Part shown: positions 21,922 through 31,502 of the stretch, in pieces | Layout of the letters: every line of letters begins with the position of its first letter | Position numbering within the stretch: position 1 is the stretch's first letter | Virus record (IMG/VR): IMGVR_UViG_3300013114_000294 | Location: 1-38,488 of that record | Direction: 5' to 3' (one strand) | DNA length: 38,488 nt | DNA from: a virus | The notes under the pieces: model-generated | Databases searched by the model: none | What the model was told of the DNA's origin: nothing | The model's input: only the letters and a program-made list of their open reading frames with translations | Made by a program: the position numbers and the translations under genes

Positions 21922-21949
21922 CCTCAATCCTTGTGATTGGGGTTTTTTT
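21922..21949 (+). terminator. Intrinsic terminator at the end of the late region
   Basis: CCTCAATC pairs with GATTGGGG (8 bp, one T-G) around CTTGT, followed by seven T residues. It closes the lysis/late transcription unit 30 bases after the last stop. Confidence 0.88.
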
Positions 21950-22000
21950 ATTACATTTGAACTTCAAGCCTGAATCATTTCTCTAAATTTGTATTTCAGC

Positions 22001-22032
22001 AAAACCCCTGAATCATTCGGTTTGGGGGTTTT
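22001..22032 (+). terminator. Second terminator-like hairpin in the late/early boundary
   Basis: AAAACCC at the base pairs with GGGTTTT, and CTGAA with TTCGG inside it; a TTTGG bulge breaks the stem. A T-rich stretch follows. It probably backs up the first terminator. The 11-mer CCTGAATCATT occurs inside it and again at 21969-21979. The rest of 21950-22066 shows no gene. Confidence 0.6.
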
Positions 22033-22066
22033 ATTTTAGAAATCACAAAAGTTTTTTCATTAAAAG

Positions 22067-25413: not shown

Positions 25414-25854
25414 ATGAGCAAAGCAAGTATAAAAGCATTACAAAAGCAGATTGATTCAGGTAAATTGAACACAAATGCTTCATTAATTTTAGAATACATT
25501 CAAAAAAACGACACACAAGAAGAAGGAATTGACATGACAATGTTGGAAGATTATTGTCAACTTAAACAATCAACAATTACATCAAGAATGTCTTATCTTG
25601 AAGATTTAGGTGTCATTTATTCTGATGGTACAAGAAAGGTTAAAAATGCAAATGGTTATGAATTCACCTATTCACTTTTTTTTGCTGAATACGACCCTTT
25701 AAAACAAGAAATAAACCGTGATAAGCGTGAATTAATGAAGTTTAGAAGAACAGTCAAAGGATTAATGAAGAATTTTCCTAATAGGATTGATGAAAGTTTA
25801 ATGGAAAAACTGAAAAATGCAATTCAAATTCAAGGTGATTTGTTTAATAATTAA
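25414..25854 (+). CDS. Winged-helix DNA-binding protein
   Basis: 146 aa. MarR-like winged helix in residues about 22-92: ASLILEYIQKND, TMLEDYCQLKQSTITSRMSY as the recognition helix region, then LGVIYSDGTRKV and YEFTYSLFFAE as the wing. The C-terminal part is a basic helix. The start has the motif variant ATAGAAATG. The TTTG element of the promoter at 25839-25869 lies inside its last codons. A role as regulator of the replication operon or as an initiator accessory would fit its place between recT and the replication genes; that is inference. Confidence 0.65.
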   Translation: MSKASIKALQKQIDSGKLNTNASLILEYIQKNDTQEEGIDMTMLEDYCQLKQSTITSRMSYLEDLGVIYSDGTRKVKNANGYEFTYSLFFAEYDPLKQEINRDKRELMKFRRTVKGLMKNFPNRIDESLMEKLKNAIQIQGDLFNN

Positions 25855-25869
25855 ATTTTATTATCTTTG
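25839..25869 (+). promoter_or_regulatory. Bacteroidetes-type promoter of the structured RNA
   Basis: TTTG (25839-25842), 19 nt, TATCTTTG (25862-25869): a perfect match to the consensus with the same spacer and the same TATCTTTGAA element as at 23489. Predicted start near 25876. Confidence 0.85.
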
Positions 25870-25875
25870 AAGTCG

Positions 25876-25983
25876 AACTAAGAAAATTAAAATCATTCCG
25901 TTTCGCACACTAAGAATGATTTAAGAATTAAAAAACCTTTTGGTGGATAGGAGTGCGAACCTTGAAACCGAAAGGTTTTTTTA
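25876..25983 (+). ncRNA. Structured RNA with kissing loops, leader or sRNA
   Basis: About 108 nt between a perfect promoter and the replication initiator gene, with no open frame of note. Hairpin 1 pairs 25890-25898 with 25914-25922 (9 bp, AATCATTC with GAATGATT). Hairpin 2 pairs about 25930-25943 with 25968-25981 and ends in a U-run. Loop 1 holds TTCGCAC (25902-25908) and loop 2 GTGCGAA (25953-25959), which are perfectly complementary and could form a 7-bp loop-loop contact. Hairpin 2 is itself an intrinsic terminator, 9 bases ahead of the ATG at 25991. It may be a free small RNA or an attenuator controlling the replication operon. No known family is recognised. Confidence 0.7.
25930..25983 (+). 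terminator. Terminator hairpin ending the structured RNA
   Basis: AACCTTTTGG pairs with CCGAAAGGTT, extended by flanking A-T pairs to about 14 bp, with a 24-nt loop and a U-run. The large loop with a conserved-looking GTGCGAA is unusual for a simple terminator and suggests regulated termination. Confidence 0.75.
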
Positions 25984-25990
25984 TATCTAA

Positions 25991-26596
25991 ATGAAAAATA
26001 CACAATACATCACAATACAAGGTTGGATGGTTAATGACCTGAAACTGAAAGGAAATGACTTGATAATTTATGCAATCATTTATGGATTCAGTCAAGACGG
26101 TGAATCAAAGTTCAATGGTTCTATTGAATACATCAGAAATGCAATTAATTCTTCACGAGGAACTGTAATTAAATGCTTAAAAGTATTAACAGAAAAAGAG
26201 TTAATCATTAAAGAAAAAGTAAGCAAAGGAAAAATTCACTTTTGTCTTTATCAGGCTAACTTAATCAAAGTACAAAATCTATACAATCAAAGTATAAAAA
26301 CTGAACTTCCAAGTGGTACAAAAACTGAACCCAATAATACTACTATAAATACAATAGAATATAGGAAGAAAAAATTCATTGATTCGGTTAAACCTTACGA
26401 ATTAAAATATGGTGTTAATATGTTGAATGCATTTTATTCTTATTGGACTGAATTGAATAAGAAAAAAACAAAAATGCGTTTTGAACAACAAACATTCTTT
26501 GAAGTAGGTAAAAGACTTGCAACTTGGAATAAAAATAATAAAAAAGGCGGTGATGAAGGCGGTGGAACTTTCGATGCCTCACAATATACAAATTAA
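25991..26596 (+). CDS. Replication initiator / replisome organiser
   Basis: 201 aa. The N-terminal 95 residues are a winged-helix DNA-binding domain (WMVNDLKLKGNDLIIYAIIY, then IEYIRNAINSSRGTVIKCLK). After an Asn/Thr-rich linker (about 105-125), the C-terminal part has a DnaD-like flavour (KMRFEQQTFFEVGKRLATWN) and a Gly-rich tail. This layout and the position directly before the DnaB gene match phage initiators that open the origin and load helicase. The origin could lie within this gene or in the structured region upstream, but no iterons are seen by eye. Confidence 0.7.
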   Translation: MKNTQYITIQGWMVNDLKLKGNDLIIYAIIYGFSQDGESKFNGSIEYIRNAINSSRGTVIKCLKVLTEKELIIKEKVSKGKIHFCLYQANLIKVQNLYNQSIKTELPSGTKTEPNNTTINTIEYRKKKFIDSVKPYELKYGVNMLNAFYSYWTELNKKKTKMRFEQQTFFEVGKRLATWNKNNKKGGDEGGGTFDASQYTN

Positions 26597-26610: not shown

Positions 26611-28044
26611 ATGACAGATAAAAATAAAAATATTAGAACAAGACCAAGAAGACCACAATTTCGTCAAGTTGATACGGACCACGGAAAACTTCCTGCACAA
26701 GATGTTGAAATGGAAGAAGCAATTCTTGGTGCAATTATGTTGGAAAAAACTGCAATGCATAAAACACAGAAAATTTTATCACCTGAAGTTTTTTACAAAG
26801 AAGCACATCAAAAGATTTATTCTTCTTGCATAGAACTTCAAAACAAAAATGAACCAATTGACATTTTGACTGTCACTACTCAATTAAAAAAGAATGGTGA
26901 ACTTGATTTGATTGGTGGACCTTATTACATTTCACAACTAACAAATAGAACTGCAAGTGATGCACACATTCAATCACATTCAATGCTTTTATTAGAACAC
27001 TACATCAAAAGAAAGCACGTGAAAATTGGAACTCAAATGATTATACAAGGTTATGACCCAACAGTGGATATAATGGACACAAATGAATTGATTTCAACTT
27101 CAGCAAACGAACTTCTTCACATTATTGAACCAAGTTCTGAAAAGAGTAATTCAGATTTGATTCGTGAAGTGATTCATCAAATGGAGTATGCAAAAAAACA
27201 CGATGGTGTCAGTGGTATAAAATCAGGGTTTCACCAACACGATGAAATCACAAATGGATGGCAAAATTCAGATTTGATTTATATTGCTGCACGTCCTTCA
27301 ATGGGAAAAACTGCTTATGTATTAGCACAAGCAAAACACATCACAGTTCACGAAAAGAAACATGCTGCATTTTTTAGTCTTGAAATGAGTGCAGACAAAT
27401 TGATGAAAAGACTGACTTCGTGTGAAACTGAAATTCCTTTGGAAAAGATTCAGAAAGGAAATTTGGATGCAAATGAATTAACACAATTTCATAAAAAGGT
27501 TGGTGTCCTAGAAACAGAAAAACTTCATTTCTTTGATGATATTAAGTCAATCCAAGGAATCAAATCAAAGTGCCTTGAAATGCATCTAAATAAAAAATTA
27601 GACATTGTATTTATTGATTATCTTCAATTAATAGAACACCCATCTTTTAAAGGAAATCGTGAAGGTGAAGTGTCAAAGATTTCAAGAATGCTGAAACTTC
27701 TTGCAATGGAATTAAATGTTCCAATTGTTTGTTTGTCACAGTTGTCAAGAAAGGTTGAAGAAAGGTCATCAAAACGTCCACAATTGTCTGATTTACGTGA
27801 TTCAGGTTCAATTGAACAAGATGCAGATGTTGTTGAATTCCTGATGCGACCTTCTTACTACAAAATGAAGAATGTTCCTGAAGAACTTGCCTTAATTTTG
27901 ATTCAAAAACACAGAAACGGAAGTCTTGCCACTATCAATTTGAGATTCAAAGGTGAATGTGTCCGTTTTGAAGATTGGGAAGGAACAACCGCAAAACCAT
28001 TTGACCCAAATGATTTGGGTGCAAATGACGATTTACCTTATTAA
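26611..28044 (+). CDS. dnaB: Replicative DNA helicase, DnaB type
   Basis: 477 aa, full length. The N-terminal helical domain (EEAILGAIMLEKTA; LTVTTQLKKNGELDLIGGPY) is followed by the RecA-like motor: Walker A ARPSMGKTA (about 227-235), SLEMSADKLMKRLTSCET, Walker B DIVFIDYLQLIE and the motif LSQLSRKVEERS then SDLRDSGSIEQDADVVEFL. It unwinds DNA 5'-3' at the fork. Starts with AGAGAAATG 14 bases after the initiator gene. No polymerase or primase is encoded, so it presumably brings in the host machinery. Confidence 0.95.
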   Translation: MTDKNKNIRTRPRRPQFRQVDTDHGKLPAQDVEMEEAILGAIMLEKTAMHKTQKILSPEVFYKEAHQKIYSSCIELQNKNEPIDILTVTTQLKKNGELDLIGGPYYISQLTNRTASDAHIQSHSMLLLEHYIKRKHVKIGTQMIIQGYDPTVDIMDTNELISTSANELLHIIEPSSEKSNSDLIREVIHQMEYAKKHDGVSGIKSGFHQHDEITNGWQNSDLIYIAARPSMGKTAYVLAQAKHITVHEKKHAAFFSLEMSADKLMKRLTSCETEIPLEKIQKGNLDANELTQFHKKVGVLETEKLHFFDDIKSIQGIKSKCLEMHLNKKLDIVFIDYLQLIEHPSFKGNREGEVSKISRMLKLLAMELNVPIVCLSQLSRKVEERSSKRPQLSDLRDSGSIEQDADVVEFLMRPSYYKMKNVPEELALILIQKHRNGSLATINLRFKGECVRFEDWEGTTAKPFDPNDLGANDDLPY

Positions 28045-31411: not shown

Positions 31412-31487
31412 ACCAATAAGGTGAGAGGCACACACAAACTTGGCTAACAATCCAAGAAGTTCGAAGGTTCGAATCCTTCTATTGGTA
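31412..31487 (+). tRNA. tRNA-like element with an irregular anticodon arm
   Basis: Fills the gap between two genes. The 7-bp acceptor stem pairs ACCAATA (31412-31418) with TATTGGT (31480-31486), followed by discriminator A31487. The T arm is canonical: GAAGG - TTCGAAT - CCTTC (31463-31479). The D arm shows GTG...CAC with A and GG positions. The anticodon stem CTTGG/CCAAG (31439-31443, 31452-31456) is intact, but the loop CTAACAAT has 8 nt and extra bases lie between D and anticodon arms. Read as C-U-AAC-A-A the anticodon would be AAC (Val), unusual in bacteria. Degenerate tRNA, decoy or frameshift-type tRNA are possible. CCA is not encoded. Confidence 0.6.
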
Positions 31488-31502
31488 CTAAAAAAAAGAA
31501 GT

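Follow-up and report, generated by a model that had tools for sequence, protein, structure and literature searches.

Does the DNA immediately ahead of the replication-initiator gene of this phage encode a structured RNA, and if so, what could such an RNA do there? The window, i.e. the complete 38,488-base IMG/VR virus record analysed here, has the gene content of a tailed phage (portal, capsid, protease, tail and terminase genes). The original prediction had placed in it a perfect promoter followed by two hairpins whose loops are exactly complementary, and direct reading bears this out (Table 1). The promoter is overlapped by the 3' end of the preceding winged-helix ORF. The second hairpin does carry a U-run and does end 9 nt before the initiator ATG, as had been stated; only the end coordinate then given, 25983, was off by about 1, the T-run ending at 25982.

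Table 1. Coordinates of the element and of its flanking genes in the window
Feature	Positions	Strand	Basis
Upstream ORF, winged-helix / replication O-like protein	25414-25854	+	Pfam RPA_C 2.6e-5; phrog_391 3.1e-5
Bacteroidetes-type promoter TTTG-N19-TATCTTTG	25839-25869	+	TTTG 25839-25842, 19-nt spacer, TATCTTTG 25862-25869
Hairpin 1, 9-bp stem, 15-nt loop	25890-25922	+	Direct reading, fold; stem covaries in relatives
Kissing sequence UUCGCAC, loop 1	25902-25908	+	Exactly complementary to GUGCGAA of loop 2
Linker, 7 nt	25923-25929	+	Kiss-to-kiss spacing 44 nt; family median 45
Hairpin 2, intrinsic-terminator hairpin	25930-25981	+	Direct reading, fold; whole element matched by model R1
Anti-kissing sequence GUGCGAA, loop 2	25953-25959	+	Complementary to UUCGCAC
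Terminator T-run	25976-25982	+	Direct reading
Replication initiator / helicase-loader-like gene, preceded by the leader	25991-26596	+	phrog_6969 6e-31; DnaD-like phrog_186 2e-7
DnaB replicative helicase, next gene of the operon	26611-28044	+	Pfam DnaB_C 1.6e-88

Hairpin 2 is composed of a 15-bp outer stem, a purine-rich GGAU/UGAA internal loop (25945-25948 and 25963-25966), a 3-bp AGG/CCU inner stem and an 8-nt loop. The loop-loop complementarity, hereafter named the kiss, covers exactly 7 nt and is flanked on both sides by mismatches. In the minimum-energy fold both hairpins form and both loops are free (-28.9 kcal/mol, z -3.6, 1 of 200 shuffles as good). The 7-mer alone is weak evidence in a single sequence, since TTCGCAC occurs 3 times in the window for 1.4 expected; that the kiss is not a chance match follows from the relatives, which show loop-loop pairing too. 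A second copy of the element in the window was considered and rejected, the covariance model R1 described below having its sole window match at 25894-25985. At 21932-22045, about 90 nt upstream of ORF 22128, the window also holds a second promoter-like site, TTTGAAC...TAAATTTG, immediately followed by a terminator-like hairpin (AAAACCCC..TTTGGGGGTTTT); there, the promoter spacer and the hairpin loop both contain TGAATCATT.

Direct DNA similarity and initiator-protein scans gave almost no close kin, and a DnaB scan none. Relatives were collected with a descriptor made of a hairpin, then a second hairpin with a complementary loop, then a U-run. Before initiator genes, it matched in phage 11b and in dozens of IMG/VR contigs; when the promoter and U-run were required as well, 83 candidates were obtained on the plus strand, against 6 on the minus strand and 3 in one Markov shuffle. 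The Flavobacterium columnare phage FCV-1, whose initiator has about 39% identity, exhibits the identical layout in wholly different letters (loop 1 GUAGAGAG, loop 2 CUCUCUAC). Further isolates with the element are morran9-1, phi19:1, elemoF_6-3D and FCOV-S2, with a variant in Nekkels_1; in phi13:2, phi19:3 and L089, the 5' partner sits in no clear hairpin loop, yet matches the terminator loop over 8-9 nt. The family thus collected from IMG/VR contigs and isolated Flavobacterium and Cellulophaga phages counts some 77-82 distinct elements and about 50 different kissing sequences, in a set that is redundant and in part selected by a descriptor demanding a kiss. No element was found upstream of the initiator relatives of Bacteroides phages B40-8, BF10P2 and BF344P1 and Parabacteroides phage PD491P1. 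Among 395 Bacteroidota genomes R1, which misses divergent subclasses (the AGUA class, FCV-1), had no match; the initiator domain is present in 2 of them, one of which (L178) carries the element. The U-run after hairpin 2 is absent in L029, L033, L034 and L035 (at 2551), where the fold and the kiss ACAACCAC are kept, and it is displaced in FCV-1. Three versions of the internal loop occupy one position in hairpin 2 across the family: UGAA/GGAU, the same turned by 180 degrees (GGAU/UGAA, as in the window), and AGUA/GAA, which resembles the loop E motif.

We then asked whether the proposed helices covary, a check on which the prediction of two conserved, paired loops depended. It passed strongly. 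Among 22 aligned relatives, 98.4% of pair cells were paired, compared with 69.2% in shuffles; double changes were seen in 23 of 28 pairs, and the covariation score was 0.83 versus 0.25. The kiss helix was 100% paired and doubly changed at 6 of 8 positions in these relatives, which had been selected for having a kiss; R1 was therefore built without kiss pairing, from other phages, the window element being left out of its training set. It recovered that element at 38.5 bits (E 2.6e-4), and with the window included, 59/59 matches were on the gene strand. In all 54 distinct matches from two R1 searches the loops were perfectly complementary over 6 nt or more, and in 49 over at least 8 nt, a length reached by 7.5% of swapped partners and 0.9% of shuffled loops. 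Elements of this kind also came out of a pattern scan in which neither complementarity nor a gene was imposed; every real one has a kiss, lengthened in some by a G-U pair. The 14 column pairs with the strongest corrected mutual information are all proposed pairs, and both hairpins and the inner stem covary like the kiss. By this comparison, the window element is a member of a real phage RNA family.

The family also has a constant genomic setting, in keeping with the earlier proposal of an RNA with its own promoter and built-in terminator lying ahead of replication genes. TAnnTTTG lies at most 32 nt upstream of all 36 R1 matches examined, versus 2.9% at random places, and in most elements hairpin 1 begins 2-8 nt past the -7 box; the family shows no enrichment of the -33 box, a perfect one being peculiar to the window. 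In 68 of 76 elements the terminator stem is followed within 30 nt by the start of an ORF, compared with 16 of 111 other terminators from the same loci. This is the layout of an intrinsic-terminator attenuator, with stem and U-run between promoter and start codon and no space for another promoter, one lineage having no U-run.

The genes that follow are replication initiators of several unrelated types and primase-helicases with a BT4734-like domain, but also HNH/NUMOD4 endonucleases (as for the second FCV-1 copy) and one MT-A70 methyltransferase. Because extra copies precede endonuclease and methyltransferase genes in the same genomes, a main role as origin primer was rejected, and the RNA primer or origin-linked RNA once offered as an option becomes less likely. 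Record G015 has two RNA copies with the same kiss GTGGACG (L118:8636 and L119:1001, both on the minus strand), one ahead of a NUMOD4/HNH endonuclease gene and the other ahead of a similar ORF, which suggests that a promoter-RNA cassette may travel with homing endonucleases. As for the initiators, the ORF of the window has a Pfam HTH_36 match (1e-4) that is under the curated cut-off. It shares a C-terminal domain (F..YW.E...K.RFE...F....RL.TW) with the initiators L015:33871-34509 and L013:4584-5246, the N-terminal domains of this group being unrelated (DUF6291-like, HTH_36-like); the common domain is probably a helicase-loading module.

Is the kiss made within one molecule? The segments between the two partners vary considerably, from 4 to 18 nt on the hairpin-1 side, 3 to 35 in the linker and 15 to 24 in the hairpin-2 arm, and yet 49 of 52 distinct geometries add up to 39-51 nt. 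Kiss spacing was less variable than in permuted sets, with lengths compensating each other (P 5e-5, uncorrected for kinship among sequences); the window itself combines a long hairpin 1 with a short linker. Spacing so constrained would be expected of a contact within one molecule, but not of one made solely between molecules, pointing to a kiss made in cis.

On this basis, we think it reasonably likely that the family is a promoter-proximal, cis-acting leader of some 95-110 nt, working as a kissing-loop attenuator that limits read-through into replication genes. Comparison among relatives establishes the family itself, how its RNA folds and kisses, that it has a promoter and a terminator, how tightly it is tied to the start codon, and a spacing that favours a cis contact. 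RNA polymerase would start at or just before hairpin 1, which would fold, and as the loop of hairpin 2 exits the polymerase it would be paired by that of hairpin 1 over 6-9 bp. The polymerase would next reach the intrinsic-terminator stem and U-run, 10-30 nt ahead of the start codon. Most transcripts would stop there, as a compact and stable short RNA of about 105 nt, and a minority would read through into the replication gene, so that the leader would set the dose or timing of initiator synthesis; it probably controls the amount of replication protein. We infer that partial termination limits read-through, with the kiss adjusting termination or making the short RNA more stable. We do not claim that the kiss is a switch, since one lineage keeps it and loses the U-run, terminator stem and kiss are compatible on paper, and no conserved antiterminator exists: mutual-information analysis of the relatives revealed no covarying alternative helix, and a weak helix between linker AAGG and stem CCTT was judged by eye not to be conserved. 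Nor may termination be the sole role, given the lineages in which the U-run is lost or displaced. Two other candidates were set aside: antisense control is rejected, a complete -33/-7 consensus facing the leader being present in none of 82 elements (lone -7 boxes: 13/82, background 23%), and a phi29-type packaging RNA is rejected for a window that has a terminase large subunit.

The RNA could instead act in trans, as a short RNA transcribed from its own promoter and ended by its own terminator; the gene that follows would be a mere neighbour and the kiss a stable fold offered to a binding protein or another RNA. Its paired 5' end, close behind the -7 box, and its terminator 3' end are those of typical short RNAs, and hairpin 2 has conserved purine-rich internal loops. 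We nevertheless hold this unlikely: in most elements the start codon is too near the terminator to leave space for another promoter, and this closeness holds before unrelated gene types, a placement that a free short RNA does not need.

Variation among close relatives raises a different possibility. Around the element and in the downstream gene L069 and L072 share 98-100% identity, but differ in the stem of hairpin 1, two kiss pairs and the entire inner stem, all compensated. Kisses differ despite 96-99.8% identical downstream DNA in L072/L078, L022/L026, L071/L076 and L039/L041, and in 9 of the 10 genomes with at least two copies all kisses differ. Simple attenuation does not explain different kiss alleles in near-identical phages; cassette recombination, diversifying selection or both could. 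At its boldest, the kissing loops would be a hypervariable, self-complementary specificity code, each leader recognising its own allele only. Related phages sharing a cell would then control replication through an RNA-encoded distinction of self from non-self, and selection would maintain the diversity; we regard this as rather improbable. A specificity or immunity device, in which the loops of the terminated RNA pair with same-allele leaders as these are being transcribed and so damp the replication genes of relatives or surplus copies, much as P4 CI RNA or plasmid antisense RNAs do, is likewise rather improbable. Kiss alleles would then be compatibility groups, as the compensated differences between near-identical phages and the differing kisses of copies in one genome invite one to think. 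Against it, the spacing is constrained as for a cis contact, and a kiss formed in cis would win over one formed in trans; an antisense promoter is absent; allele swaps may be ordinary recombination; and many of these phages may be virulent, because the initiator domain is so rare in host genomes (2/395).

The put antitermination RNA of phage HK022 also consists of two hairpins immediately past an early phage promoter, with a specific conserved sequence; it is not known to have a built-in terminator or loop-loop pairing. The family likewise places two hairpins at the extreme 5' end of operon transcripts, and a folded leader that attaches in cis to RNA polymerase and causes it to disregard later terminators can be imagined. 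This is very unlikely for a family whose members nearly all end in a terminator themselves, whose sequence is almost free to vary and which also stands ahead of endonuclease genes. Least plausible is a DNA-level element, either inverted-repeat protein sites or an origin structure: the kiss is indeed an inverted repeat adjoining replication genes, but stems and some kisses contain G-U pairs, the stems, inner stem and kiss covary, the sites lie within loops behind a promoter, copies precede endonuclease genes and the window has no GC-skew turn.

We also examined whether the family was known. Taking a covariance-model score above a family's gathering cut-off as the mark of membership, Rfam 15 gave only a tRNA in the window, nothing at the element, and no match in 16 family loci. 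In 3 isolate loci there was none up to E 1, and lax matches on 251 bases were far below family cut-offs. This agrees with the expectation of a structured RNA outside known families. The matched tRNA-like gene, at 31412-31488 (RF00005, 32.5 bits), is called tRNA-??? by ARAGORN, with a 4-base 'anticodon' aaca; given this odd anticodon loop, it is possibly a degenerate or suppressor-like phage tRNA. A description of the leader family was not found in the open, published literature searched, and the family is apparently undescribed. Little is known of gene-expression control in Bacteroidetes phages. Their replication control becomes directly testable with a leader RNA that is widespread among them, whose helices nearly all vary in a compensatory way and whose kissing segments keep an almost constant distance. 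It also supplies many naturally occurring kissing-loop pairs, built on the same scaffold and different from each other, and with them a natural experiment on the specificity of RNA contacts and on the tuning of terminator hairpins by a tertiary contact.

Three known systems come near. In satellite phage P4, the CI RNA (seqA-seqC) belongs to an untranslated leader before replication genes, in which RNA-RNA pairing is tied to premature transcription termination (PMC4825925). CI is processed from the leader, acts as antisense on complementary sites up- and downstream, and serves lysogeny. The family shares a leader with complementary segments before replication genes, but its partners are two loops of one short RNA ending at its own terminator, and most of its phages are not known as temperate. 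The pT181 attenuator upstream of repC similarly includes a kissing-hairpin contact in its control (PMC5435934). It depends on an antisense RNA and on an antiterminator that competes with the terminator. A terminator hairpin directly before a replication-initiator gene and a kissing contact are common to both, whereas neither an antisense RNA promoter nor a competing antiterminator was found in the family. Finally, a Gifsy-1 promoter yields both a terminated short RNA, IsrK, and a read-through mRNA (PMC4825925), a pair of products that is putative in the family; IsrK, however, activates translation of its read-through product, and kissing is unmentioned in that source. Belonging to none of these systems on the features tested, the family would, by these analogies, work like a leader attenuator comparable to P4 CI RNA, pT181 and IsrK.
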